Below are positions 38,161-53,049 of a stretch of DNA of 64,000 nucleotides, piece after piece. The notes below the pieces were generated by a model that had not been told where the DNA came from, ran no database searches, and saw only the letters and a program-made list of their open reading frames with translations. Location: positions 34,510-98,509 of IMG/VR virus record IMGVR_UViG_3300046368_000687; one strand, given 5' to 3'. Positions within the stretch are counted from its first letter, which is position 1. Every line of letters begins with the position of its first letter. The stretch comes from a virus. The position numbers and the translations under genes were made by a program.

Positions 38161-38288
38161 TACAATCTCAGCATTCAGAAGTAATTGAAGTTGACAACCA
38201 CAAGTTTTGTGTTATAATAAGATATTGTAAAACGTGCGGACAAGTAAAATCGCAATCACATATAACGGAAGCAAAGAATGGCAACTAG
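38136..38288 (+). CDS. Short zinc-ribbon-like protein bridging two genes
   Basis: 50 residues. It starts inside the end of the carbamoyltransferase gene and ends 11 bases into the helicase gene. Paired cysteines (CC near residue 4 and CKTCG near 31) suit a small zinc ribbon. It fills the only gap between the two large genes with suitable overlaps. Confidence 0.6.
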   Translation: MHGCCNNVIQSQHSEVIEVDNHKFCVIIRYCKTCGQVKSQSHITEAKNGN

Positions 38289-39690
38289 ACAAAACACAGA
38301 CTATGGATATGATATACAGAAAGTATATCTTGAAATGATGATGAGCGATGCCGAGAGCTTTGTACGTTGTCAGGCTGTGTTTGATCCAGATAGTTTTGAT
38401 AGAAGACTAAAGGCACCAGCAGAGTTTTTAAACAATTATGTTAGTGAACACAATGCATTGCCTACGTTTGATATGATTAATGCAGCAACTGATATTAATT
38501 TAAAAGATCCAGGGCAGCTACAAGAAAATCACTATGACTGGCTGATGCAAGAGTTTGAAACGTTTAGTAAACACAAGGCACTAGAAGCAGCAATCCTAAA
38601 GAGTGCCGACTTGTTAGAGAACGGTGACTATGGGCAGTGCGAGGATCTAGTTAAGAAGGCTGTACAGATTGGTTTGCAAAAAGACTTGGGTACAGACTAC
38701 TATGCTGATCCAAGAGCTAGACTAGAAGGCATCAAGAGTACTAACGGACAGGTAAGCACAGGCTGGCCAGCTATGGATAAGAAACTGTTTGGCGGCTTCA
38801 ACAGAGGCGAGCTGAATATCTTTGCAGGTGGTTCGGGTGCAGGTAAGAGTTTGTTCCTTGCTAACATTGGCGTTAACATGGCTGAGAAAGGCTTGAATGT
38901 AATCTACTTGACACTAGAGCTTGCAGAGAGTCTAGTTAGTATGAGACTTGATAGTATGACCACAGGCATTCCAAGTCGTGATGTGTTTAAGAGCATTGAC
39001 GATGTTGAAATGAAGGTTAAGATTATTGGCAAGAAGTCGGGTGCATTCCAAGTCAAGTATATGCCAAGTGGCAAGACAGCAAACGATGTACGTAGCTACA
39101 TTAAAGAGTATGAGATTAAAACAGGCAAGAAGGTAGACGTACTGCTGATTGACTACTTGGACTTGTTGATGCCAGCAAGCACAAAGGTAAGTGCAGAGAA
39201 CTTGTTTATCAAAGACAAGTACGTAAGTGAAGAACTACGTAACCTAGCAATGGAATTGAACACAGTGTTTGTAACAGCAGCACAGTTAAACAGAGGTGCT
39301 GTGGAAGAGATTGAATTTGATCACTCGCACATCAGTGGTGGACTTAGTAAGATCCAGACTGCGGACAACGTGTTTGGTATCTTTACAAGTAGAGCTATGC
39401 GTGAACGTGGACGCTATCAGCTACAGTTGATGAAAACACGTAACTCAAGTGGAGTAGGACAAAAGATTGATCTAGGCTTTAACTTAGACACACTGCGCAT
39501 TGAAGACTTGGGCGATGATGATGACGATGGTGCAACTAGTACAACTACAGGCAGCAACATCTTAGACAATATTAAACGTAGCAATGCACCAGTACAAGAT
39601 CCAGTTAGTGGATCAAGTGCGCCAAAGCTCAAAGCAGATGCTGATAGTACGCAACTACGTAACTTTATTAATAACTTGGGTACTGAATGA
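38278..39690 (+). CDS. gp41: Replicative DNA helicase (gp41/DnaB family)
   Basis: 470 residues (T4 gp41: 475). An N-terminal helical domain is followed by a RecA-like ATPase with GGSGAGKS near residues 184-191, the Walker B strand VDVLLIDYLDLL near 285-296, and the conserved Arg/Gln region AAQLNRG. It unwinds DNA at the fork and recruits the gp61 primase. The C-terminus is Asp/Ser/Thr-rich and probably flexible. Confidence 0.95.
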   Translation: MATRQNTDYGYDIQKVYLEMMMSDAESFVRCQAVFDPDSFDRRLKAPAEFLNNYVSEHNALPTFDMINAATDINLKDPGQLQENHYDWLMQEFETFSKHKALEAAILKSADLLENGDYGQCEDLVKKAVQIGLQKDLGTDYYADPRARLEGIKSTNGQVSTGWPAMDKKLFGGFNRGELNIFAGGSGAGKSLFLANIGVNMAEKGLNVIYLTLELAESLVSMRLDSMTTGIPSRDVFKSIDDVEMKVKIIGKKSGAFQVKYMPSGKTANDVRSYIKEYEIKTGKKVDVLLIDYLDLLMPASTKVSAENLFIKDKYVSEELRNLAMELNTVFVTAAQLNRGAVEEIEFDHSHISGGLSKIQTADNVFGIFTSRAMRERGRYQLQLMKTRNSSGVGQKIDLGFNLDTLRIEDLGDDDDDGATSTTTGSNILDNIKRSNAPVQDPVSGSSAPKLKADADSTQLRNFINNLGTE

Positions 39691-41680: not shown

Positions 41681-42032
41681 GCAACTGCATCTAAACACTG
41701 CTTATGCAAATCCAAAGCTATGGCTGTATAGACTAAAGTGGCATCATTATCTACCAAGACATCACAGTCGACCTTATGCCAGCGGCAGTTTGTTTGTGTA
41801 TGATGCCAATGAAATAAGCACTGGAATACCCACTGCACACTACATATGGGACAAGCACATGAGCATCGTTAGACAATGGAGTACTGCACTGGTGTTACTA
41901 GAATTGCCCAGCTGGAGTAACAGACAAACACTGGAACTATACACCAATCTGCAGGACAATATTCCTATGACACAAGTAATAGTTTGGGGTAAGAGTAGCA
42001 GTGTTCTAGAGGAATGGTGCAGTCATGAATAA
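41673..42032 (+). CDS. Unknown protein coupled to radical SAM gene
   Basis: 119 residues from the ATG at 41673 (overlaps the previous stop by 8 bases; GGAG upstream). Trp-rich near the N-terminus (PKLWLYRLKWHHYLPRH). No motif recognised. Overlaps the following gene by 8 bases, so all three are probably translated together. Confidence 0.65.
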   Translation: MRKQLHLNTAYANPKLWLYRLKWHHYLPRHHSRPYASGSLFVYDANEISTGIPTAHYIWDKHMSIVRQWSTALVLLELPSWSNRQTLELYTNLQDNIPMTQVIVWGKSSSVLEEWCSHE

Positions 42033-43158
42033 ACAGTATGCATTTACTCCTCACTACGAAGAACTTGCAAGAGAACTAATGTGTGTAAACCTACTGCCTC
42101 TAGTGGACAACACTGAAAACCATCTGTGTGTAATTGACTACGAAACACTAGCAGACAATGCACGTCCACTGCCTTCAAGTGTGTACGCTAGTGAAGCTGT
42201 AATAGTATACTGTGGCACAGAAGCTATTGGCTGGCCCAGTGTACCCGCAGGTCTACGCAAAATGCTAGTAAAACTTAGCAAAGCCACTCGAGTGTACTAT
42301 GCACTGATTAGCCCTGCTCAAGTGCGCAGTTGTGATTTACCTGGTGAAGGCGGGTTTGTGTACAACAGCTGGGAACATCAAACTGTAAAATCCTGCAGTA
42401 CATGGTGGCGCTATCAAGAACTCAAACCCACTAGAGATATACTGTGGATGAGCAGACGAATTGCACCTGAACGAATGGTGATATATCATCACTTGACACA
42501 CCAAACACAGCACAGTGTGTACGCTAGTATGGGCAACACCAACTACTGGGCCACTGTCGCAAACGAAACCTGGAGAAATCATTTTGTACCTGAGCTGTAT
42601 GCAGACCCTGATCACGCTCTTAGATTCTACCGTAGAGTGGGCAACCATCGAGAAATACAGCTTCTTCCTAGAGCTTTCACACACCGCCAAGGTCCGTGGA
42701 ACATGCGAGAACATGATATAATGGGCAAAGGAGGAATTGGAATTGCTATAGCTAATGCACACACTGTTTGGGTTGGTGATAGCCATGCACTAAATCCCAC
42801 TGAAGGAATTATACACACTGAAAAACTATTCAAAGTGTTTGCAGTTGGTAGAAGTGTGCATCCATTTGGAGCTCAACACTATATCAGAGATCTAGTAGAG
42901 CTTGGCTATGACTTTGAAATACCTGAATACGACACTATAGCAGACGGTGCCGCTAGACTCGCACAGTATCTACACAGTGACCCACCACGCCAAGATAGTA
43001 TACACAATAGAAGTGTACTGCACACTAGAACACAGCACAACCCACTGCCACCAGAGTTTGAATGTACTAGAACCGACCCTAGTGTAGAAAGACCAGAAAC
43101 AAGCAATTGGTTGTGGCACATGGCTAAAAAAACTGCACTTCGCCAACAAGCCACGTAG
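42025..43158 (+). CDS. Glycosyltransferase-like protein, paralogue A
   Basis: 377 residues. The C-terminal third has GIIHTEKLFKVFAVGRSVHPFG, followed by YIRDLVELGYDFEIPEYD. This follows the TEK-x-(5-7)-P...LG(Y/F) pattern found in fucosyltransferase-like and viral GT proteins. The same pattern appears at 53332 and 54308, so three family members flank the early module on both sides. Donor sugar unknown. Confidence 0.6.
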   Translation: MNKQYAFTPHYEELARELMCVNLLPLVDNTENHLCVIDYETLADNARPLPSSVYASEAVIVYCGTEAIGWPSVPAGLRKMLVKLSKATRVYYALISPAQVRSCDLPGEGGFVYNSWEHQTVKSCSTWWRYQELKPTRDILWMSRRIAPERMVIYHHLTHQTQHSVYASMGNTNYWATVANETWRNHFVPELYADPDHALRFYRRVGNHREIQLLPRAFTHRQGPWNMREHDIMGKGGIGIAIANAHTVWVGDSHALNPTEGIIHTEKLFKVFAVGRSVHPFGAQHYIRDLVELGYDFEIPEYDTIADGAARLAQYLHSDPPRQDSIHNRSVLHTRTQHNPLPPEFECTRTDPSVERPETSNWLWHMAKKTALRQQAT

Positions 43159-43176
43159 TGGTTTAGCGCCGCAAAT

Positions 43177-43191
43177 AGCTGCGAAGCAGCT
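43177..43191 (+). terminator. Hairpin after glycosyltransferase-like gene
   Basis: AGCTGC-GAA-GCAGCT forms a 6-bp stem with a 3-nt loop; a short A-rich stretch follows rather than a T-run, so termination is unproven. Confidence 0.45.
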
Positions 43192-43257
43192 TGCAGCAAA
43201 AAATTCTAGTACCATACTAGTGGACCATATACACTATAAAAAACATACACACCATAC

Positions 43258-43299
43258 TCATACGGCCCCGTACGACATGCCGTTAGCTACCGTACGACA
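43258..43299 (-). repeat. Iteron cluster, left end of the early module
   Basis: Two copies of CCGTACGACA lie exactly 22 bp apart (43268 and 43290). A facing TCATACGG (43258-43265) is separated by two bases from the first. Read on the minus strand this is two direct copies of TGTCGTACGG, then GG, then an inverted half site. The same arrangement occurs in the opposite direction at 51862-51945. Confidence 0.8.
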
Positions 43300-43302
43300 A
43301 GG

Positions 43303-43557
43303 TTATACAAAAGAAGTCATTTTATCATAAGAGAACGGTATGCAATCGTGATATTTCATAGCTACATATGTTATGCGACTATCACATTCATGTAGTGCAA
43401 TAAACCTAGCACGATGACTACCGGGATAGTCAGGATGCTCTAGTATACTAAAACGATGATGCATTAGCTCTACCTTGAAGTATTGTACTTTACCCAAATA
43501 AGGATAATTGAACGGATCTTCACTTGACCTATGTACAGTAACAAACCATTGAGCCAT
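43303..43557 (-). CDS. Small leftward protein with its own late promoter
   Basis: 84 residues, rich in Phe, Tyr and His. A TATAAATA element ends four bases before the start codon on the minus strand. Sequence includes HPDYPGSHRARFIALHECDS. No family recognised. It stands alone between the iteron cluster and the early genes. Confidence 0.6.
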   Translation of the reverse strand: MAQWFVTVHRSSEDPFNYPYLGKVQYFKVELMHHRFSILEHPDYPGSHRARFIALHECDSRITYVAMKYHDCIPFSYDKMTSFV

Positions 43558-43565
43558 ACAGTATT

Positions 43566-43571
43566 TATAGT
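43566..43571 (-). promoter_or_regulatory. Leftward late promoter element
   Basis: On the minus strand, TATAAATA ends four bases before the ATG of the 84-residue gene, the same geometry as several + strand genes. Confidence 0.5.
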
Positions 43572-43950
43572 GAATATCTCGTATACTCGATAACTTCGCT
43601 GCACTACGTGTCGTCTATTGACTCACTTCGTGTTGCTCGATATAGTCGAGAACGTTATAGTCCTAAAAGATACATCCATACGGGTATTAGTATAAAGTGT
43701 AGAAACACACATAGACCAATCATTAGTACAACTATCTTAGGATTTCCTCTATCACCGTGCATACAGTTATATATCCGAAATGGGTCCTGCAGGGTAAAAA
43801 TTTTGCTGCGCAGTTTTTTATAGAGAAGTACTTATGCTTTCACGGTGGTGATTTTGCAACCCCACTACTAGCTAAGTGCTTGTATTAATTGTATAATATA
43901 CTAAGCGACCGACCTCTCAAAATTTTTTTTTTTTCGTTAGTGACCGACCA
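43572..43950. other. Non-coding spacer left of the early genes
   Basis: No convincing gene. It contains several CGATA/TCGAGA-type short inverted repeats near 43590-43660, a CTGCGCAG palindrome, two copies of GACCGACC near 43910-43950 and a run of 12 T (43923-43934). A short + strand reading frame at 43608-43823 has no ribosome site and is judged spurious. Confidence 0.5.
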
Positions 43951-43983
43951 AAGAAAAAGAGACAACCATTTCTGATTGCCTCT
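43951..43983 (-). terminator. Leftward terminator of the early module
   Basis: On the minus strand AGAGGCAA pairs with TTGTCTCT (one G-U pair) around a 10-nt loop, followed by a T-rich TTTTTCTTT stretch. It lies 60 bases after the last early gene. Confidence 0.7.
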
Positions 43984-44043
43984 CCGTCTAGTGTAGTCTA
44001 GGATAGTCTAACTCCCTACGAGTCTCAACAGGCTCCTAGCTGC

Positions 44044-44328
44044 CTATTCTCCTACGTGCAATGGTGTTAGAAGCGTAGCTGTAACCTTCCATGTAGTAGC
44101 ACTAGCCCTGTCCTTTACTAGCACAGTCTTAGGATTGATCTTGCGCACACTACCAGTAACAGTCGCACCACCTCTGCCTTCAAAGGTGACTACATCACCT
44201 ACCCTCAGCTTGCGTGTCATGTTGCGAGCAATGTATGTTCGCTGACTCTTGACTGCTGCAATAACTCTATTGAGTTCGTCGTTGTCCATGCGTTGGATTT
44301 GATCTAGTACTGTATTAATCATAGTCAT
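44044..44328 (-). CDS. Small SH3/KOW-like early protein
   Basis: 94 residues. After a helical start, RKLRVGDVVTFEGRGG near residue 40 opens a small beta-barrel-like segment (VTGSVRKINPKTVLVKD) resembling KOW or SH3-like domains that bind RNA or protein. The start has GAGGG seven bases upstream and its own early promoter. Function unknown. Confidence 0.65.
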   Translation of the reverse strand: MTMINTVLDQIQRMDNDELNRVIAAVKSQRTYIARNMTRKLRVGDVVTFEGRGGATVTGSVRKINPKTVLVKDRASATTWKVTATLLTPLHVGE

Positions 44329-44365
44329 TGTGATACCCTCATATCTTGTTTGTTAATATACATAC

Positions 44366-44394
44366 AGTATACGACACATGCCGTATACTGTCAA
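44366..44394 (-). promoter_or_regulatory. Early promoter P12
   Basis: Minus strand TTGACA, 17-bp spacer, TATACT, upstream of the gene ending at 44044. Confidence 0.85.
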
Positions 44395-44398
44395 CCTC

Positions 44399-44821
44399 TT
44401 ATACTATGTAGGCTGCCTTAGTTGCATCCACCTTTAGTTCGTTTGGAATGCTGTTGGGCATGTAGGTGTAAGGCTTGTTCCACGCTGTACCAATAGTGAT
44501 ATCAGTGTAGTGGCTGCGGTGGAAGTAGTCTGTCATCGCATCATCATTGTTGAAGTAGTTAGGACCTTTCATTGCGTCCAATAGTTCGTTTAGGAAGTTG
44601 CGAGCAATGCCTGAATAGTGTTGATCGATCCAATACTCGTTGACATCAATGTAGGCTTCTCCACGCATGTAGTCTGAGAAGTCAATGCCACCACTCTTAA
44701 CTGTTACACACAGTGTTGAATGATTGCGCACACGGATTGAACCTTTCATACCATACTTGTTGAGCACTGCCTTGATAGCTGGTGCTAATGATTTTTTGTC
44801 TGCTTGTGATACATATGCCAT
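44399..44821 (-). CDS. Unknown early protein
   Basis: 140 residues, start preceded by GAGGGC. Sequence includes GMKGSIRVRNHSTLCVTVKSG, which resembles a small ssDNA- or RNA-binding beta segment common in phage and plasmid proteins of unknown function. Transcribed from its own promoter (44860-44888). Confidence 0.7.
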   Translation of the reverse strand: MAYVSQADKKSLAPAIKAVLNKYGMKGSIRVRNHSTLCVTVKSGGIDFSDYMRGEAYIDVNEYWIDQHYSGIARNFLNELLDAMKGPNYFNNDDAMTDYFHRSHYTDITIGTAWNKPYTYMPNSIPNELKVDATKAAYIV

Positions 44822-44859
44822 TGTGTTTTGCCCTCTTACAATGTTTAACTTATAGTAAC

Positions 44860-44888
44860 AGTATACGACATCTACCGTATACTGTCAA
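44860..44888 (-). promoter_or_regulatory. Early promoter P11
   Basis: Minus strand TTGACA, 17-bp spacer, TATACT. Confidence 0.85.
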
Positions 44889-44896
44889 CCATTTAA

Positions 44897-45169
44897 TTAA
44901 TAATATTCTTCTACCACAGGAGAGTTCAACCAGTTGTTGAGACAATAGTTCTCAAGCTCGCGGATCACCCGACCATAGAACTGATACTTGCGCTCTGCTT
45001 CAGCGTGGCTTATCTCTCCATCACAGTGTAGGTTCTCAGGTGACAAATCTCTGTCCAGTCTACGTGCAATAGTGTCCACACTCTTCTGGCTAAGTGGAAA
45101 GGTGATGTTGGTGCCATAAAAGCCACCGAACATCAAGTTTTCGTTTATATAGTTGTTGAGGTTTTTCAT
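44897..45169 (-). CDS. Unknown early protein
   Basis: 90 residues from the ATG at 45169, chosen over a GTG at 45181 because GAGG sits correctly before the ATG. It begins inside the last bases before the upstream gene's stop, so translation is coupled. No motif recognised. Confidence 0.65.
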   Translation of the reverse strand: MKNLNNYINENLMFGGFYGTNITFPLSQKSVDTIARRLDRDLSPENLHCDGEISHAEAERKYQFYGRVIRELENYCLNNWLNSPVVEEYY

Positions 45170-45170
45170 A

Positions 45171-45440
45171 TTAGGCCTCACACACTGCTAGGACACCTGG
45201 ATTGATCCATTCGGCATACAAGCCCAGTGGATCCAGTATATCATTGATACGGTTGCTTACGCCCATGATGTAGCCAGTGCAATCACCGTCTGTCATCATA
45301 TAGTAGTCAGCCCATGTGTGGTGCTCATCACCACTCTCTGCACTGATGCGAAAGCTGTCTTCGCCGTAGTATCCACCTTCAATAGTTGGACAACCAATCT
45401 TGTTCAATTGATTGTATGCTGTTCTTAAATTGCGTTTCAT
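45171..45440 (-). CDS. Unknown early protein
   Basis: 89 residues; leader GAGGGCATTTAC. The sequence (YNQLNKIGCPTIEGGYYGEDSF, then DGDCTGYIMGVSNRINDIL) is acidic and looks folded. First gene of a two-gene operon from promoter 45476-45504. No family recognised. Confidence 0.65.
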   Translation of the reverse strand: MKRNLRTAYNQLNKIGCPTIEGGYYGEDSFRISAESGDEHHTWADYYMMTDGDCTGYIMGVSNRINDILDPLGLYAEWINPGVLAVCEA

Positions 45441-45475
45441 GTAAATGCCCTCTACATTGTTTTGTTTATACTAAT

Positions 45476-45504
45476 ATTATACGACAGGATTGGTATGCTG
45501 TCAA
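45476..45504 (-). promoter_or_regulatory. Early promoter P10, perfect -10
   Basis: Minus strand TTGACA, 17-bp spacer, TATAAT. The TGA stop of the 42-residue upstream gene lies inside the -35 hexamer. Confidence 0.9.
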
Positions 45505-45629
45505 CCAAAAAATTGAATTAAATTCCACCAAGTAAGACTAGGTCCTTGTCCAAAGTCAATCCATCCAAATGCGAATATTGCGATAACAGCGTAACCAAAC
45601 AGTTCGCCTACCCATTCCTTGCGAGTCAT
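45501..45629 (-). CDS. 42-residue membrane micropeptide
   Basis: Starts with TAATG coupling to the gene at 45629-45847. One membrane span (about residues 11-24, FGYAVIAIFAFGW) and a Trp pair near the end. Its stop codon is built into the next promoter. Too short for motif assignment; superinfection or membrane effects are possible for such peptides. Confidence 0.6.
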   Translation of the reverse strand: MTRKEWVGELFGYAVIAIFAFGWIDFGQGPSLTWWNLIQFFG

Positions 45630-45847
45630 TACAATTCCTCCGATTGATCTTCTGCGAAGCGGAACAAGTCTAGTGCTAATGACCTAGCTTCGTCTTTGCT
45701 GAGCTGTATGCTTTGGAAGAACTTGTCTGCTGTAGTCAGCGGACCTAAGTTGGCAGCACGAGGTGTAGTGACTTGAACTTTAAGTTCTCCTCCCCAGAAG
45801 CGTGTAAGGCTTACATCTTTGGTGTTGCTTTTTAATTCTGTTGACAT
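45629..45847 (-). CDS. Unknown early protein
   Basis: 72 residues; leader has AGGAGGGC. KVQVTTPRAANLGPLTTADKFF resembles small phage proteins of unknown role; the C-terminus is acidic. Shares one base with the following micropeptide gene. Confidence 0.65.
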   Translation of the reverse strand: MSTELKSNTKDVSLTRFWGGELKVQVTTPRAANLGPLTTADKFFQSIQLSKDEARSLALDLFRFAEDQSEEL

Positions 45848-45877
45848 GGAGCCCTCCTAATGTCTGTTTATATTAAT

Positions 45878-45906
45878 AGTATACGACAGGTTGTACTAGT
45901 TGTCAA
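45878..45906 (-). promoter_or_regulatory. Early promoter P9
   Basis: Minus strand TTGACA, 17-bp spacer, TATACT. Confidence 0.85.
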
Positions 45907-46181
45907 CCATAAATATTATGTTTCTTGGTATACCATTTCTCTACTACAGGAAGACCAAACTCGTCTTCGTCTACACACACTACCACACGAGTCTTCATCA
46001 CGTGAGCATAACGATATCCTTGATCGCCACACACGCCTGCACCACCAGTCCAAACCTTGTGTGGAAAGTCTTCGTTGATGTTATTGAGCACATCGTTGTT
46101 GATGCTCCATTCAAACCAGTTGCCAGTGTCCTTCTCTTGGAATGCACCAACTGGATCCTTTGTGTGAGTGTAGTATGCCAT
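45903..46181 (-). CDS. Unknown early protein
   Basis: 92 residues, leader GGAGGGC. Aromatic and acidic; contains DFPHKVWTGGAGVCGDQG. The last codons overlap the next promoter's -35 region. No family recognised. Confidence 0.65.
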   Translation of the reverse strand: MAYYTHTKDPVGAFQEKDTGNWFEWSINNDVLNNINEDFPHKVWTGGAGVCGDQGYRYAHVMKTRVVVCVDEDEFGLPVVEKWYTKKHNIYG

Positions 46182-46213
46182 TGGAGCCCTCCGTTGTGTC
46201 TAACTATACATAT

Positions 46214-46242
46214 AATATAGCATGAGAATACTCAGTTGTCAA
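46214..46242 (-). promoter_or_regulatory. Early promoter P8
   Basis: Minus strand TTGACA, 17-bp spacer, TATATT. Confidence 0.85.
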
Positions 46243-46260
46243 CCACTATTTTAAAAGAAT

Positions 46261-46366
46261 TGTAGCAGCAGGATGAGGGCGGTCCTGCTGCTACATGGTT
46301 GGAAGCGCAGCGTGAGGGCATTGCATTGCTTCCTATGTGCTGCTAAGGGAGGGCACCTTTAGCAGC
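46261..46366. ncRNA. Three consecutive hairpins with a shared loop motif (candidate structured RNA)
   Basis: Hairpin 1: 13-bp perfect stem (46261-46273 with 46283-46295). Hairpin 2: GGAAGC with GCTTCC (46301-46333). Hairpin 3: GCTGCTAAGG with CCTTTAGCAGC, one T bulged (46339-46366). Each loop contains GAGGGC on the + strand (GCCCTC on the minus strand). The minus-strand early genes use GAGGGC-type ribosome sites. Hairpin 1 is followed leftward by a T-rich tract and may also end the ATPase transcript. Confidence 0.5.
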
Positions 46367-46387
46367 GTTTGTACGATGTGCGGAGCT

Positions 46388-47389
46388 CTATGCTCGACGC
46401 ATCACCGTATTCTCTGCAAAGGCTTCCCAATCGTCTGGGAATGCCACTGCTAGATCCGCTACCTTGAGCACTGTACGCAATGACAGCTCACGTAGTCGGT
46501 TCTTATTAATATCAACGAAGTCTACGATCTCGTCCTTGATCTCTTGATCTAGCTTGTATGCATTGAGCATACCGTCCATCACAACCTGCTTGATACGCAG
46601 CATCTTGTCACGGTCTGTGTCAATTGTAAGGTCCATATAGTGGCAACGTGACTCTAGTGCTTCTAGGTGCTCCTTTAGCTTGCCTTTGACTTTGTCAAAC
46701 TTCATGTTGGTAATAAAGATAGCAGATGCTTTAAACTCAAACGAGTCTGGCACACCTTCGTTGCGCAGCTTGAATGAATCAGTGTTCCAATGGATCATTC
46801 TACGACCCTTGCTGTCTAGTGCAGCTTTTAGAATGTTAAGGCTTAGATCGTCTTGGAAGATGCTGTCACAGTCATCAAATACCACAACGTTACCTTTGTC
46901 TGCCATGCCATAGAGCTTGCAGTACAATCCAATAGGTGACATAGCACCTTTGATCACTTCATACTTGCGTGTACCTCCTAAGGCTTCTAGAGTCTTGTAG
47001 CGGTCTAGTACTTCTTCAACACCATGCGACTTGCCTACACCTGGAGGGCCACTTACGATCATTGCACGTACATCACCCTTCTTGACTGCCTTAGTCATGT
47101 CGCCTAGCATGTTAAAACGTTTGCGCAAGCGTTCTACAATTGCAGCATCACTCTCGTCTTCAGGAGCAGCGACGGCTACGGAGTCATCAACTTCAACGAA
47201 GTCTTGCTCACTGTCTACATAGACTTTGATATTGCGATCTGGATAACCAGACACTGCACTACCGTCTACTGTTACGTAGCCGCCGCGAACACCTATCTTG
47301 AATCCTTGTGATAATGGAAGTACTTTATCTGCCACTTCGATGTTTCTACCCTTAAAGCTAAAATAGCCACTGTTGAATCTAACGTTCAT
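46388..47389 (-). CDS. AAA+ ATPase
   Basis: 333 residues from the ATG at 47389 (GAGGGTAAG upstream). Walker A is GPPGVGKSHG, and NVVVFDDCDSIFQ is the Walker B with DD. AIFITNMKF is a sensor 1-like strand. The N-terminal 90 residues are a separate beta domain. Related AAA ATPases are common in marine T4-type phages; the substrate is unknown. Single-gene unit behind promoter 47420-47448. Confidence 0.8.
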   Translation of the reverse strand: MNVRFNSGYFSFKGRNIEVADKVLPLSQGFKIGVRGGYVTVDGSAVSGYPDRNIKVYVDSEQDFVEVDDSVAVAAPEDESDAAIVERLRKRFNMLGDMTKAVKKGDVRAMIVSGPPGVGKSHGVEEVLDRYKTLEALGGTRKYEVIKGAMSPIGLYCKLYGMADKGNVVVFDDCDSIFQDDLSLNILKAALDSKGRRMIHWNTDSFKLRNEGVPDSFEFKASAIFITNMKFDKVKGKLKEHLEALESRCHYMDLTIDTDRDKMLRIKQVVMDGMLNAYKLDQEIKDEIVDFVDINKNRLRELSLRTVLKVADLAVAFPDDWEAFAENTVMRRA

Positions 47390-47419
47390 CTTACCCTCAT
47401 AAGTTGTTTTGTTACGTAT

Positions 47420-47448
47420 ACTATACGACATAGTCATTCGCTTGTCAA
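47420..47448 (-). promoter_or_regulatory. Early promoter P7
   Basis: Minus strand TTGACA, 17-bp spacer, TATAGT. Confidence 0.85.
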
Positions 47449-47452
47449 CCCC

Positions 47453-47614
47453 TTATTGTGATAATTGATAAAAGAAAAGCATCCAACCTAGAACGCCAAT
47501 GGTTGCTGCTGCTACTACAGGAACGTTCATAGCACGGATAATCATAGTGACTACACCTACCGCAGCAAGTACAGCGACGAACGCAATTAGGATTTCAACT
47601 GAACCTTCAAACAT
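47453..47614 (-). CDS. 53-residue membrane protein
   Basis: TAATG coupling to the upstream gene. Two likely spans (about residues 7-25 and 31-49). No motif. Short intrinsic membrane proteins recur in this early region (45501 and 48403). Confidence 0.6.
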   Translation of the reverse strand: MFEGSVEILIAFVAVLAAVGVVTMIIRAMNVPVVAAATIGVLGWMLFFYQLSQ

Positions 47615-47931
47615 TATATCGCCTCCTCTAGTGGTGACACATCTTTGGCTGTTGACCTAATGAAGTCAGCATATTCAACGCTCTCCTTGTCCAACTCTGT
47701 CTCCCACTCATCATAGCTGCGGAACGCTACTGGATACTCCTTCTGGGAGATATCATTAGTGCCGAACTTGGCCATTACGAATGCAATCGCATCCTGAACA
47801 CGCTCTAAGTCGGACACGATGTAATCAGTGCCGCCCTTCATCTTCCAGTATGCATTACCGCTGGAGAACTTACCGTCCTCACAGTGTGCGCCATAGTTTT
47901 CTAAATACTGTGTTGAGATAACAAATTTCAT
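47614..47931 (-). CDS. Unknown early protein, conserved phage type
   Basis: 105 residues from the ATG at 47931; the longer frame to 47976 would run into the promoter. MKFVISTQYLENYGAHCEDG, then NAYWKMKGGTDYIV, is a layout familiar from other phage proteins. Acidic. First gene of a two-gene operon. Confidence 0.65.
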   Translation of the reverse strand: MKFVISTQYLENYGAHCEDGKFSSGNAYWKMKGGTDYIVSDLERVQDAIAFVMAKFGTNDISQKEYPVAFRSYDEWETELDKESVEYADFIRSTAKDVSPLEEAI

Positions 47932-47966
47932 AATCTTTAGCCCTTGTCTGTTTGCCCTATACATAT

Positions 47967-47995
47967 AATATAGCATGAGAGCAGCACATTGTCAA
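47967..47995 (-). promoter_or_regulatory. Early promoter P6
   Basis: Minus strand TTGACA, 17-bp spacer, TATATT, just downstream of the tRNA-Arg gene. Confidence 0.85.
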
Positions 47996-48015
47996 CCTCT
48001 TATTTCAAATACTTT

Positions 48016-48092
48016 TGGCGATCTCTGCAGGATTCGAACCTGCGACCTAGTGCTTAGAAGGCACTTGCTCTATCCAGCTGAGCTAAGAGACC
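48016..48092 (-). tRNA. tRNA-Arg (anticodon TCT)
   Basis: A complete cloverleaf: acceptor GGTCTCT pairs with AGAGATC (one G-U), the T-loop is TTCGAAT, and the anticodon loop is CTTCTAA. The CCA end is encoded. It reads AGA codons, which are frequent in these AT-rich genes. Confidence 0.95.
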
Positions 48093-48104
48093 AGCAGAAG
48101 TATT

Positions 48105-48188
48105 TGGTACTCGCACCCGGATTCGAACCGGGACGCCTTGCGGCAACAGATTTTAAGTCTGTAGTGTCTACCATTCCACCATGCGAGC
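48105..48188 (-). tRNA. tRNA-Leu (anticodon TAA)
   Basis: 84 nt with acceptor GCTCGCA pairing TGCGAGT, a long variable arm typical of tRNA-Leu, anticodon loop CTTAAAA and encoded CCA. It reads TTA, a common leucine codon here. Separated by 12 bases from tRNA-Arg. Confidence 0.95.
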
Positions 48189-48196
48189 AGTTCTAT

Positions 48197-48406
48197 CTAT
48201 GCTCCGTCATCCATTTCAAATGTTTCATAACGTTTGTCAAGTATCTTAGCGACTCCTGCAAACATTTCATATTGACGATCCGCTTCATGTTCAGCTTCTA
48301 CCAAACGAGCTTGCCACTTCACAAGGATGTCTTCGAACGCTGTGGTATCGCTACCAAAGGTGTCAATGTCCTTAAGGTCTTCTACGATTTCAATTAAGTC
48401 GTTCAT
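48197..48406 (-). CDS. Unknown acidic helical early protein
   Basis: 69 residues from the ATG at 48406 (ATGA overlap with the upstream micropeptide). Strongly acidic coiled-coil character. Located just upstream of the tRNAs in one transcript. No family recognised. Confidence 0.6.
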   Translation of the reverse strand: MNDLIEIVEDLKDIDTFGSDTTAFEDILVKWQARLVEAEHEADRQYEMFAGVAKILDKRYETFEMDDGA

Positions 48407-48531
48407 CCTACCATCCAATATGTTAAGCCTACAACGAGTGTCAAGTTCATTGCGAAGCTGGTTGCATTGATAAGCATTGCAGCGATCCAGCTGCGCTCTT
48501 CTACATCGTCTTCAAAATAATCGATTTCCAT
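48403..48531 (-). CDS. 42-residue membrane micropeptide
   Basis: Acidic N-terminus (EIDYFEDDVEER) then a single span (about 16-36). ATGA overlap with the downstream gene. First gene after promoter 48561-48589, in front of the tRNA operon. Confidence 0.6.
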   Translation of the reverse strand: MEIDYFEDDVEERSWIAAMLINATSFAMNLTLVVGLTYWMVG

Positions 48532-48550
48532 ATTACCCTCTTTGCCCTTA

Positions 48551-48796
48551 TTACTCTACTACTATAGCATGACGAGCGCCGGGTGTCAACCGATATTTGT
48601 TTCTTTTTCCGATAGCATAACGAACAAGCTCTTGGCGCTTCTCGTTCATTGTGTTGGTGTCGAATGGCACCTTAACAGTTTCAAGTTCATACGCCAGCTG
48701 CGATGCACAGTTGGAGATCACATCTTCTGGATCAACTTCTGCTACATTGCGTAGAAGACCCATTAGCTTCTGAAGTTCTCTTGCATTAAGTTTCAT
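48551..48796 (-). CDS. Unknown early protein
   Basis: 81 residues, start preceded by AGGAGATAGAAT. Helical; contains QKLMGLLRNVAEVDPEDVI. Its stop lies in the -10 region of the next promoter. No family recognised. Confidence 0.6.
   Translation of the reverse strand: MKLNARELQKLMGLLRNVAEVDPEDVISNCASQLAYELETVKVPFDTNTMNEKRQELVRYAIGKRNKYRLTPGARHAIVVE
48561..48589 (-). promoter_or_regulatory. Early promoter P5
   Basis: Minus strand TTGACA, 17-bp spacer, TATAGT; overlaps the end of the 81-residue gene. Confidence 0.85.
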
Positions 48797-48809
48797 ATTC
48801 TATCTCCTA

Positions 48810-49007
48810 TTAATCTAAATCACAGTACCAGTTGCCGTCTTTGAAGTCTGCACGTAATCCGCCTAGTGGAAAGTCTGTGTGCTCAAACAGCATGTAAGGA
48901 CGGTTGTCGTAGTCCATTTTCATTGTTACTACACGCACATCGTCTACTGAGATCCAACGCTTTTCGCTGTCACGGTATGCTGAGTTAAAAATGCAAATGT
49001 CTGCCAT
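48810..49007 (-). CDS. Unknown early protein
   Basis: 65 residues; start preceded by GGGAACTT. Basic/acidic mixed with several aromatic residues (GNWYCDLD at the end). First of two genes from promoter 49046-49074. Confidence 0.6.
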   Translation of the reverse strand: MADICIFNSAYRDSEKRWISVDDVRVVTMKMDYDNRPYMLFEHTDFPLGGLRADFKDGNWYCDLD

Positions 49008-49045
49008 TTTGTAAGTTCCCTCTTACTGTGTTGCCCTATACATAT

Positions 49046-49074
49046 AATATAGCATAGGGCACACTAGTTGTCAA
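49046..49074 (-). promoter_or_regulatory. Early promoter P4
   Basis: Minus strand TTGACA, 17-bp spacer, TATATT; contains the TGA stop of the upstream 40-residue gene. Confidence 0.85.
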
Positions 49075-49193
49075 CCTACTTTTTCAATAAATCTACGAAT
49101 TTGTTTTCCAACAGTTTGGCACATAGCTTCTGCATCTTCTAGTCGACTACAGATAGCAACTATTTCGCCTGAGGCATCCTTTACCTTATACAT
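49071..49193 (-). CDS. 40-residue early peptide
   Basis: Starts 8 bases inside the end of the gene at 49186 (ATGTATAA overlap), with GAGGAAGAG upstream. Includes IVAICSRLEDAEAMC and ends RRFIEKVG. Its stop sits in the -35 of the next promoter. Amphipathic helix; function unknown. Confidence 0.6.
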   Translation of the reverse strand: MYKVKDASGEIVAICSRLEDAEAMCQTVGKQIRRFIEKVG

Positions 49194-49329
49194 CCTCTTC
49201 CTCCTTAAGGCCTGCACTCACTGTGAACACTGCTCCGCCATCGCTGAAGTCAACATCCATAATCTCCCAATCGCTTCCGCTATACTTCTTGAGCACAGCT
49301 TCGATATCGTCTAGTAGAGCATCAAGCAT
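49186..49329 (-). CDS. 47-residue early peptide
   Basis: Overlaps both neighbours by 8 bases. Acidic; SDWEIMDVDFSDGGAVFTV suggests a small beta hairpin. No family recognised. Confidence 0.6.
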   Translation of the reverse strand: MLDALLDDIEAVLKKYSGSDWEIMDVDFSDGGAVFTVSAGLKEEEDV

Positions 49330-49846
49330 CCTGCAACTCCTCTTCTTCATACTCAGCTAACCGTTCGTCTAGTGCGAACTCCTCTACTAGGTACTTGGGA
49401 ACGATGTCGGTGATGGTCTTGCTGTCAGCTTCTGAATAGTCGTAGTAGTCATCGCCACCTTCACTATCCCAACAGCCTACGAAGCACATACCGCCTTCTT
49501 CATAGAAGAGTTCAATGTAGCACGAGTCCCAGTCTTGTGACAAGGTGTGCATTGCCGCAATAGGTGGAGCCCATGCAGTTTCAAAGAATCCTGTGATAGT
49601 AGCAGTGCCATCACCATTGTCGATGAACTCTAGGTTCAGCTCTGGATCCCACTTGGTGCCCCAGTTCTCGTGACACCAGTCATACCAGTTGGGTTCATCA
49701 CTAGGAGCCACAGTGCCTTCTAGTTCCTTAGGCATAGGTGCGATTGCTTGAAGCAAGCCTTCGCCTGCTTCTACTACAGGTTTCAGTTGGACGAGTGTAT
49801 CGTAATCGCCAGTGATTGTGATTGTGTTGTTGCACCAGTTAGGCAT
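49322..49846 (-). CDS. Api92-like (ferredoxin-fold) early protein
   Basis: 174 residues. MPNWCNNTITITG at the start is the signature of the Api92/DUF1281 family, found in many phages and integrative elements. The middle has WYDWCHENWGTKWDPEL, also characteristic, and the C-terminus is very acidic. TAATG coupling to the upstream gene. Biological role of the family is unclear. Confidence 0.8.
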   Translation of the reverse strand: MPNWCNNTITITGDYDTLVQLKPVVEAGEGLLQAIAPMPKELEGTVAPSDEPNWYDWCHENWGTKWDPELNLEFIDNGDGTATITGFFETAWAPPIAAMHTLSQDWDSCYIELFYEEGGMCFVGCWDSEGGDDYYDYSEADSKTITDIVPKYLVEEFALDERLAEYEEEELQDA

Positions 49847-50322
49847 TACACTACCTCCTGATCAATCATGCGTTGCATACGAGCCTTGGCAGTGCGGATT
49901 GAATCCTCCGCATCATGCAAGACTTCTTTGGTATACACTGCAATCTGTGTCCATGTACCGTCTAAGCGCAAGACATAAGCATACTCTTCACCACAGGGTG
50001 TGTTGCGCTGGAAGCACTTTTCAAACACTTCATAGGAAGCATAAGCCTTAGGACCTACATCTGTTTCGCCACGGTCACGTCCGTAGTAGACATTCTGTGC
50101 GTAATAGTTATCGTCACGGCAGTCAAAGTCTGTCTTGCTACCAATAGTGTCTGCCCAATGCGATGCGTCACCTAACTGAATAGCGGCACCAAGCAAATCT
50201 TCGTCTGCCCAGTTGTTGACTAGGTTGAAACCCAAGCCTGCTGGGTAACCGTCCCAGTGATGATATGAAGTTAAGATTGAACCGTCTGCGTTTTCGATTC
50301 CGATACGAGCTCTAGTTGCCAT
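49846..50322 (-). CDS. Conserved phage protein of unknown function
   Basis: 158 residues from the ATG at 50322 with GGAGGGC upstream. MATRARIGIENADGSI, then SYHHWDGYPAGLG, is a widely shared phage sequence pattern. The fold is unknown. First of four genes from promoter 50358-50386. Confidence 0.75.
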   Translation of the reverse strand: MATRARIGIENADGSILTSYHHWDGYPAGLGFNLVNNWADEDLLGAAIQLGDASHWADTIGSKTDFDCRDDNYYAQNVYYGRDRGETDVGPKAYASYEVFEKCFQRNTPCGEEYAYVLRLDGTWTQIAVYTKEVLHDAEDSIRTAKARMQRMIDQEVV

Positions 50323-50357
50323 TGTGGATGCCCTCCGTTTAGCGTTTCTATACAATT

Positions 50358-50386
50358 AATATAACACAGCCTTGCGGCTGTGTCAA
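50358..50386 (-). promoter_or_regulatory. Early promoter P3
   Basis: Minus strand TTGACA, 17-bp spacer, TATATT. The spacer holds a small inverted repeat (CAGCC...GGCTG). Confidence 0.85.
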
Positions 50387-50394
50387 CCTCTTTT

Positions 50395-50739
50395 TTACAT
50401 GCTCCAATAAGATTCTCTGCTGGGCGACATGTAACCTGGAGTGTTCACAGTCTCAGTGATTGGGTTTTCCTTAGCCTCATCAAAGATGCTGTACACTGTA
50501 CGCTTCTTCTCAATAGTGTCGTGGAAGTAGTTGGCCCTTGCGATGCCATAACGGAAGTGAGGATTGTTGTTTGCACTGTCGCCGTTGATACCTTCTTCAC
50601 GCCACCACTGATGGCTCCACTTGGTTAATGCTGCTCTAGCACTAGCCATAGTCTTATAGCTCTTGCGGTGATCCGGACGAACTTTGCCGTTTTTGTATCC
50701 CATAATATAAGTACTTGATTTTTCGTAAATGTAAAACAT
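50395..50739 (-). CDS. Unknown early protein
   Basis: 114 residues from the ATG at 50739 (GAGGGC upstream). KSSTYIMGYKNGKVRPDHRK, then a SARAALTKWSHQWW helix. No family recognised. Confidence 0.65.
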   Translation of the reverse strand: MFYIYEKSSTYIMGYKNGKVRPDHRKSYKTMASARAALTKWSHQWWREEGINGDSANNNPHFRYGIARANYFHDTIEKKRTVYSIFDEAKENPITETVNTPGYMSPSRESYWSM

Positions 50740-50769
50740 TGATTGCCCTCTATGTTTGTTTATACTAAC

Positions 50770-50798
50770 ACTATAGCACAAGTGCGCTATAGTGTCAA
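50770..50798 (-). promoter_or_regulatory. Early promoter P2
   Basis: Minus strand TTGACA, 17-bp spacer, TATAGT. Confidence 0.85.
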
Positions 50799-50810
50799 GT
50801 CTTTTTTTTG

Positions 50811-51098
50811 CTATACTAGCAAGTCGTCTGCTTGTGCAGTCAAGCCACTTGTTTCAAGTGCAGCTTCTAGCAGCTCATGTGCAGCGGAATCTGTAGCAAA
50901 GCCTTCTTCACTAGCAAAGTCCATGTCGCTGCTAAACATAATTCTGTCTGTTGCACGAACGTCTGCACGTAGCAGCAGCTCAACAAGTGCGTCTACACTG
51001 TCAGCAGCGCCAACAACAGCGTCTTCTACTGTTAGCTGCACTTGTGCGTCAACAGCGTTAAAAAATACAAATTTGTCATTTTGTGTATAGTGTAGCAT
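50811..51098 (-). CDS. Unknown acidic early protein
   Basis: 95 residues from the ATG at 51098 (GAGGG upstream). Repeats of D-A-V and A-A-D make it a strongly acidic, Ala-rich helical protein. It is the first gene read from the early module, so it is probably among the first phage proteins made. An inhibitor or DNA mimic role is speculative. Confidence 0.65.
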   Translation of the reverse strand: MLHYTQNDKFVFFNAVDAQVQLTVEDAVVGAADSVDALVELLLRADVRATDRIMFSSDMDFASEEGFATDSAAHELLEAALETSGLTAQADDLLV

Positions 51099-51133
51099 AA
51101 TATTTCCCTCTATGCTTGTTAACTTATACATAT

Positions 51134-51162
51134 AATATAGCACATGTATACAACGTTGTCAA
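51134..51162 (-). promoter_or_regulatory. Early promoter P1 (leftmost-reading start of early module)
   Basis: Minus strand TTGACA, 17-bp spacer, TATATT. It lies next to the 1.2-kb control region. Confidence 0.88.
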
Positions 51163-51307
51163 CCAAAAAAATAAAATAAATTTATTTTATAACCTATTGA
51201 TTTTATTAGATTCTTTCTGGTTGCAAACCTCTAGGAGTCATGTTATATTATATGTGAGGCCGGGAAAGAATGTACCGTACGGGAGGGCACGGAGCTCTGA
51301 ACCTATG

Positions 51308-51443
51308 GTTTAACGTTAAACTATCTCCTGGTCTCAAAATGGTTTAATACTAAACCTTCTCGCCAAAATGGTTTAATGTTAAACTACCTGCCTCGAGATA
51401 GTTTAATACTAAACTAGTTAGAAAATATAGTTTAATATTAAAC
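51308..51443. repeat. Array of five 14-bp palindromes
   Basis: GTTTAACGTTAAAC (51308), GTTTAATACTAAAC (51342), GTTTAATGTTAAAC (51371), GTTTAATACTAAAC (51401), GTTTAATATTAAAC (51430). Start-to-start spacing is 34, 29, 30 and 29 bp, close to three helical turns, so all sites face the same side of the helix. Two are perfect palindromes. This suits cooperative binding of a dimeric protein. Confidence 0.9.
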
Positions 51444-51861
51444 CATTCTCTCGCGGGGTCTCTAAGCTGCACACACTCCTAGCGGCGCCCCTCACATTAT
51501 CCAATGATCTCAATGACTTACAGTGTAGTATTTCTCTAATGGCCTCAAACACTTACACACAGCACATGGCCCCTCGGAACAACACTAGCTAACCTATTGA
51601 TTTAAAAGAGGATTTGATTTTGTCAACAAAAACAAAGACTTAGCAGACGAAGTTGCTATAGTATATAGTATAGTATACTAAGAGGTTGAAGTATATACTA
51701 TAAGTGTGTATAGTATAGTAGTAGACTATAGTGGAGGAAAAAGGATAATAAAATCAACTGCTTATACTATACACTTAGTGCTGAGCCTTTGTCAAGCAAG
51801 TCAAGTTCTCAAAAGTGAATATTCGCTTAAAGATCAATAGCTTACATCGTCAAGTTAACCT

Positions 51862-51946
51862 TCATACGGTGCTTATCGACACGTCATACGGTGGCTATCG
51901 ACGTGTCATACGGTGGTTAACGACAAGTCATACGGGGTCGTATGAC
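51862..51946 (+). repeat. 22-bp-period iterons, right end of the early module
   Basis: TCATACGG starts at 51862, 51884, 51906 and 51928, exactly 22 bp apart; the units are related across their whole length (TCATACGGTG, then a variable TATCGAC core). The last copy is followed by GG and the inverted TCGTATGA (51938-51945). The left cluster at 43258-43299 has the same plan in the other orientation. Confidence 0.9.
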
Positions 51947-52325
51947 ACGGTCACAGTGATATTCTCTAAGTTTTTCAACGATTTACTAGAGTATTTTAAA
52001 CCATTGACCAAGGTAGAAGGAGGCATAGTTCAAATACTTTTGCCAATAAATCCACGAGTGTACACTGTGACTCTAACCTACTACTATAGTCTCTCTCAAC
52101 TATACTCGATGCGTATACACTACAGTTCAAACTCTATACTATACTATACACACAGTGTGAGAACTCTACTCGACTATCTTCTTGACTATTGTTCTCGACT
52201 ATACTATAGTCTATACTAGGATAAATATGTTTGTCGTTGGCTGTTGGAGAGTAGAGAATTGGTGAAATAAAATTGTCCAAGTCCATCACAATAGTCAACG
52301 GCACTCTTCACAAATATCTTAGATG

Positions 52326-52376
52326 CTAACAGCGGGGCCTTTTATACTAATATGTGCTTCACTAACAGCGGGGCCT
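52326..52376 (+). repeat. Two copies of a GC-rich 15-mer
   Basis: CTAACAGCGGGGCCT at 52326-52340 and 52362-52376, 36 bp apart, unusual in composition for the surrounding AT-rich DNA and just before the gene at 52402. Confidence 0.8.
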
Positions 52377-52401: not shown

Positions 52402-53049
52402 ATGCAGTTTGAAACACCAGAACCTCGTGGACACATCATACACCACAAAGATAGAAGTTTACGACTAGGTGTACCTGTGACTATAGTAGTGGATAAGCCT
52501 AAGTTTAGCACCAACCACAATATACTATCTCCTAGACTATTGTGTAGGGCAATGTTGGACTTGGAACCTAGTACGGATACTATCAGTGTGTGGATAAACT
52601 CAGACTTTAGTGAAGCTGTATACGAACTCTATACTAAAACCTGTACCACTATGGGCGCAGACTATATAGGTTATACAGGAGATACACCAAAATTTTTGCG
52701 CGAAACCACTTGGTGGCCTGTTGCTAGATCGGACACTTCACGTACTGTGATTGGATCGAGTAGTTGGGTATGGCCTTCACGTAGTGTAGAAACTTGTGTA
52801 GCTTGGTTGATTGATCCTAGTGTAGATCCTATAAGTGGATTGACTATAGCTCCTCAGTGGCGGAGAAGGGATAGTGCGAGCATACTAGAAAGACTTAGGG
52901 CTTGGGCGGAGTTGGATTCGACTCGTGTGCTAGGAGAGAACCGTCGCGAAGTTTTTGAAGTCGTGCGTCTTTGCCAGAGGGTACTTGGTTTGCCCACTCA
53001 CGAATTTGAGTATCGTCTGGAGCGGCTCTCAAGAGAAGATCAACTATAG
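52402..53049 (+). CDS. Unknown protein right of the control region
   Basis: 215 residues. Trp- and Arg-rich (TTWWPVARSDTSRTV; SSSWVWPSRSVETC). The C-terminal quarter is a basic/acidic helix whose coding DNA is shared, antiparallel, with the gene at 52895 for 155 bases. No family recognised. Confidence 0.6.
   Translation: MQFETPEPRGHIIHHKDRSLRLGVPVTIVVDKPKFSTNHNILSPRLLCRAMLDLEPSTDTISVWINSDFSEAVYELYTKTCTTMGADYIGYTGDTPKFLRETTWWPVARSDTSRTVIGSSSWVWPSRSVETCVAWLIDPSVDPISGLTIAPQWRRRDSASILERLRAWAELDSTRVLGENRREVFEVVRLCQRVLGLPTHEFEYRLERLSREDQL

Follow-up and report, generated by a model that had tools for sequence, protein, structure and literature searches.

Iteron origins with a separate control locus are exemplified by F (oriS/incC) and P1 (incC/incA). 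DnaA boxes are the standard bacterial replication-start sites and may also serve regulation or titration, and in lambda, CI binds the operator pair OL/OR and loops. To our knowledge, little has been described of the replication origins of T4-superfamily jumbo phages. In Vibrio cholerae, ori2 has iterons at the origin and inhibitory sites, as well as a locus for titration at a distance (PMC6090056); by analogy, this is the closest described logic to the pair of DNA arrays, A and B, reported here.

The two arrays lie in a 64,000-nucleotide stretch of viral DNA (the window), part of a 98.5-kb record, and bracket a leftward early module. As in the iteron systems, tandem helix-phased initiator sites would stand at a presumed origin, a second set lies elsewhere, and AT-rich DNA adjoins the presumed origin set. 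The likeness ends with the units, which are 20-bp dyads as opposed to simple direct repeats, with a Rep gene, which was not found among the protein families listed, and with the second set, which lies 8.6-17.4 kb off across a jumbo-phage early operon. Lambda OL/OR likewise presents multiple adjacent dyads at two sites flanking a regulatory segment; however, the phage operators are spaced by exactly 22 bp, the two sites are 8.6-17.4 kb apart, one of these stands where an operon ends, and neither repressor nor lysogeny genes were seen here. DnaA-box clusters, as in oriC-type origins (PMC4980987), occupy the region of the dyad array in G019 and G020 and, judged by position, in the relatives L048, L077, L114, and L117, whereas the B locus of the window has a single perfect TTATCCACA and no cluster. 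The closest cultured relatives were PA5oct-type and other T4-superfamily jumbo phages (DnaB 54%, NrdC.10-like AAA protein 45%). The array consensus gave no blastn match in the phage collection, and no description of these arrays was found in the literature.

Two phased dyad arrays around the early module

The leftward early module (43303..51143, minus strand) ends in an 84-aa gene (43303-43557) and contains an NrdC.10-like AAA ATPase gene (46388-47437) and two tRNAs (48016-48188), which were the only Rfam matches above threshold. Its first promoter, the outermost leftward sigma70-like one, is at 51766..51795 (minus strand; TTGACA-18-TATAGT). A sequence-only reading had described the block between the clusters as leftward, with two tRNAs and twelve promoters; direction and tRNAs held, and the promoter count rose to 13, all near-consensus sigma70 (TTGACA/TATAxT, 11-12 of 12 matches) and all leftward within the 8.5 kb of 43303-51795. 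The GC content of the bracketed module was 0.42-0.50 (42001-52000; 205-235 kb in the 330-kb relative G009), versus approximately 0.35 in most neighbouring late genes. On the other side of A, the DnaB-like helicase gene (38278..39690, plus strand) anchors the junction throughout the family. The related glycosyltransferase-like genes said to sit just outside both ends were only weakly related to one another (53326 versus 54308, 3e-21; 42025 versus 53326, 0.037), and a glycosyltransferase domain was not found in them.

Array A (43257..43298) lies 5 bp past the stop codon that closes the last leftward early gene and consists of two 20-bp dyads (43257-43276 and 43279-43298) with a 22-bp period. Array B (51861..51946), 66 bp upstream of the outermost leftward early promoter, has four such dyads (from 51861, 51883, 51905, and 51927) with the same period. 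In B, TCATACGG recurred at 51862, 51884, 51906, and 51928, spaced exactly 22 bp apart, and was followed by GG and TCGTATGA; the minus strand of A has TCGTACGG, one base different from TCATACGG, at 43290 and again 22 bp on at 43268, and after these come GG and CCGTATGA. Pairs of TCRTACGG spaced by 22 bp were never seen in 200 dinucleotide shuffles of the window, and a PWM of the dyad, run over the whole 98.5-kb record, returned exactly six sites, of which A contains two and B four, with no further dyad above shuffle background. Positions, shuffles, and PWM scan thus confirmed that the clusters first noticed exist as described, far beyond chance. Scattered copies and loss of the 22-bp phasing, the two outcomes that had been named in advance as contrary signs, did not occur; the whole-record search that had been proposed gave no copy outside A and B, and relatives' arrays also kept the exact spacing.

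Alignment of the relatives' arrays resolved the 22-bp unit into an inverted dyad of 20 bp, GTCRTANGG-NN-CCNTAYGAC, and a spacer of 2 bp, with 9-bp half-sites alternating every 11 bp along the arrays. The commonest dyad joined a GTCATACGG half to a GTCGTTAGG half, and the GG with an inverted half-site that had been taken for a terminal unit was made of two GTCATACGG-type halves. As the unit is itself a dyad, this “inverted half-site” is merely a better dyad and the polarity of an array carries no meaning. Polarity was not constant among the relatives' A-type arrays, so that only symmetry is conserved. Both clusters are present, but because A-type polarity varies and symmetric patterns match both strands, the opposite orientation attributed to them is not a real property. 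The A-type arrays also shared a frame: ACC and GGT stand two bases beyond the dyads, T-tracts lie to either side, and on the DnaB side ATAGTA follows at a distance of about 35 bp. Each array is a symmetric, helically phased array on the DNA, unique to two conserved places.

Distribution among related phages

Exact-pattern scans of the viral collection yielded further contigs, and protein searches yielded about 200 loci of the wider family. A relaxed dyad pattern gave 36 array matches, and none in shuffled controls over 3.3 Mb. In G009, whose proteins are 68-75% identical to those of the window, arrays at 209,860 and 227,295 bracket the homologous leftward early module, and no arrays beyond that pair were found in its 330 kb; the distance from A to B is 17.4 kb there versus 8.6 kb in the window. 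A-type arrays (two dyads) occurred in 13 distinct phages at the junction of the DnaB-side genes and the leftward early module. B-type arrays (three to four dyads) occurred in three phages, namely that of the window (with the near-identical contig G003), G009, and L029, the last two with three clear dyads and a degenerate fourth. The proposal that the clusters would flank the module throughout the relatives was therefore upheld in G009, but the dyad pattern was absent from most of the wider family, as judged in chosen genomes.

The module-side neighbour of A belonged mostly to the 84-aa gene family, of which G009 has probable distant homologues (hhalign E 6e-5). On the DnaB side, A adjoined either an accessory gene that runs rightward or a CHAP/NlpC-like lipoprotein gene (TIGR02594) that runs leftward, and with two kinds of neighbour the junction at A is not always convergent. 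The leftward lipoprotein gene replaced the rightward accessory gene beside A in four phages (L123:4527-5063, TIGR02594; L022:3484-4206; L308:2743-3291; L124:985-1575). L029 (PKDU01000014.1), a contig in a Flavobacteriaceae MAG, was a fragment of this phage group and was probably misbinned or derived from an infecting phage.

Two-dyad arrays with the same sequence were also found in phages of an unrelated type, whose large terminase subunit is of the Terminase_6 family. This type is represented by L007/L014/L015 (one phage) and L026, where the arrays lie between convergent genes (L014:4417-4458; L026:1059-1100). Either these phages share the binder, or the arrays have moved, or they serve more than replication.

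The B locus as a candidate replication origin

The four 22-bp units of array B form tandem, helically phased repeats in a largely non-coding stretch of approximately 1.2 kb that separates the leftward early promoters from the rightward genes. Parts of this locus are common to three diverged phages, the window, G009, and L029. Inside it, a second palindrome (array C, 51305..51448; consensus ATGGTTTAAYRTTAAACCAT) is repeated 29-34 bp apart; copies of this palindrome (GGTTTAAYRTTAAACC) numbered five in the window, about three in G009, and one in L029. Between C and B, an AT-rich stretch of TATAGTATA-type repeats (51650..51780) is a possible unwinding element. About 75 bp to the right of array B, all three phages carry a core, GGCATAGTNNAAATACTYTY; in the window this core (GGCATAGTTCAAATACTTTT; 52022..52041, plus strand) is the single copy of the record. 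Farther right are two CTAACAGCGGGGCCT elements (52326..52376, plus strand), paired in the window and in L029. The same core marked the locus in the dyad-less relatives G019, G020, G184, and G186, and the core and GGGGCC elements together were common to dyad-less relatives. The core thus spans diverged jumbo phages with or without dyads, and its hairpin closed in some of them, not all.

Among the dyad-less relatives, at least two and as many as six had DnaA-box clusters at the B locus or in the matching place upstream of the early genes. Of the nine TTATCCACA in the 357 kb of G019, five fell within about 100 bp of one another near the core, and G020 had three perfect TTATCCACA and two TTATACACA near the core. 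In L048, L077, L114, and L117, the clusters lay upstream of the early AAA gene, adjoining GGGGCC elements in L048 and L114. Clusters of at least three TTATCCACA were found at six loci, versus a mean of 0.03 for permuted 9-mers. They were confined to dyad-less relatives and absent from the window and G009; the one perfect TTATCCACA of the window's B locus is at 52589, approximately 570 bp right of the core.

The compound non-coding region around B is probably the replication origin in this jumbo-phage family. Because DnaA-box clusters stand there or in the matching place in dyad-less relatives, we read the B locus as a probable origin whose recognition array may have been swapped in the window's clade. 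On this comparison of sequences, we tentatively favour A and B as arrays of one symmetric 20-bp operator, with B at the replication origin and A as a distal control. Dimers of a sequence-specific protein would sit side by side on both arrays along one helix face. B would be the initiator array, in which a phage-specific dimer site would have replaced DnaA boxes, and A would act at a distance, titrating the protein or looping to B (“handcuffing”), in the manner of iteron plasmids and Vibrio chromosome 2, in which inhibitory sites stand apart from the origin iterons. An initiator or origin-control protein specific to the phage would then have taken over in the window's clade, with four sites at B and two at A. 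The evolutionary step itself, in which origin recognition within a single jumbo-phage family passed from host-DnaA boxes to a phage dimer site and a paired distal array was gained, giving a lytic phage plasmid-like two-locus control of replication, is possible but doubtful. Several observations count against an origin at B. L044 and L224 have the core and neither a DnaA cluster nor dyads, DnaA boxes have the other possible uses mentioned above, and no origin is evident at the arrays between convergent genes in the Terminase_6 phages. GC skew tracked transcription and gave no origin signal at B in G009, an initiator gene was not found, and A and B were visible together only in G000/G003 and G009.

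The binding protein is probably encoded by the phage. A host protein was unsupported as the binder, as single-unit matches in the bacterial collection looked like chance save for one phage contig. The full array pattern, run on this one bacterial family, was likewise absent from 151 Flavobacteriaceae genomes save one phage contig, and this speaks against a binder encoded by hosts of the family. The 84-aa neighbour was rejected: although it accompanies A in many contigs, the arrays of L022 and L142 do not have it at their side. The AlphaFold model of the 84-aa protein was uninformative (pLDDT 45). Comparison of gene presence and absence between array-positive and array-negative genomes returned mostly shadow ORFs and no clear binder. 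Rep, HTH, and RHH families were found neither among the early-module proteins nor among the best 25 of the 46 Pfam families matched by 80 of the phage's own proteins.

If A and B do pair, a large phage genome would have a control circuit that links two sites over a long distance. The B locus offers a short candidate origin, traceable across a large uncultured family by its core and GGGGCC elements, and sister phages with DnaA boxes or dyads in the corresponding place provide a natural comparison.

Other roles for the arrays

Among the functions first suggested for the clusters, a replication-control pair or a looping or boundary pair survived, given the position of the arrays in G009 and the DnaA clusters. 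In the second of these, dimers of a phage transcription regulator at A and B would pair, loop out the early module, and silence or insulate it later in infection, with A at the end of the early operon and B between leftward and rightward promoters. This main alternative, which likens A and B to OL and OR under lambda CI, is a serious possibility, if a somewhat doubtful one, and it would explain the bracket as well as an origin would. In two diverged phages, the leftward module is exactly what the pair encloses, B shares a divergent control region with array C and stands 66 bp upstream of the promoter that is outermost in the early module, and T-tracts lie symmetrically on either side of A. However, A is away from the promoters of the early operon, sister phages can carry DnaA boxes in place of B, and a repressor-like gene was not found.

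We consider it unlikely that A is a bidirectional terminator or roadblock between convergent operons, of which B would be a diverged copy. A does have T-tracts to either side and a place between convergent genes in the window, L008, L013, L020, L021, L142, L014, and L026, but the DnaB-side gene beside it is leftward in L022, L019/L024, L123, and L124, and B sits at no convergent junction. The constraint on the arrays acts on DNA, not RNA: a consensus fold of 15 arrays (-0.25 kcal/mol) contained no conserved hairpin and no compensatory pairs, and flanks complemented their own partner no better than those of other phages (p = 0.43). An RNA hairpin or intrinsic terminator at A was rejected on the lack of a covarying stem and of own-flank complementarity; a pure protein roadblock at A is possible.

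Dyad arrays with two-turn spacing look like partition sites in general form, and the sequence-only reading had named the product of a ParB-like gene (61894) among the candidates for a binding test. That candidate was not supported, since the protein gave only sub-threshold domain matches and has no homologue in G009, which keeps both arrays. A ParA or actin/tubulin partner was also absent among the families listed, and centromere-like sites for a ParB- or ParR-type protein seem improbable.

Lastly, it is barely credible that A and B are transposon ends or recombinase sites at the borders of a mobile or invertible segment, or the scar of one as once suggested: 22-bp sites at both ends in unequal numbers recall Tn7 and Mu, whose ends both carry sites, more at one than at the other, and module GC is raised, but terminal inverted repeats are absent beyond the dyads, the outer flanks of A and B are unmatched, the module adjoins DnaB in the same place in array-less relatives and keeps one orientation in all A-type contigs and G009, and a transposase or recombinase was not found in it.

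Apart from the arrays, ACAGCGGGGCC(T) was strongly conserved on the strand opposite the early genes and was often multicopy around the B locus, occurring at 52326-52376 in the window and in L048, L077, L079, L114, L224, G009, and others.
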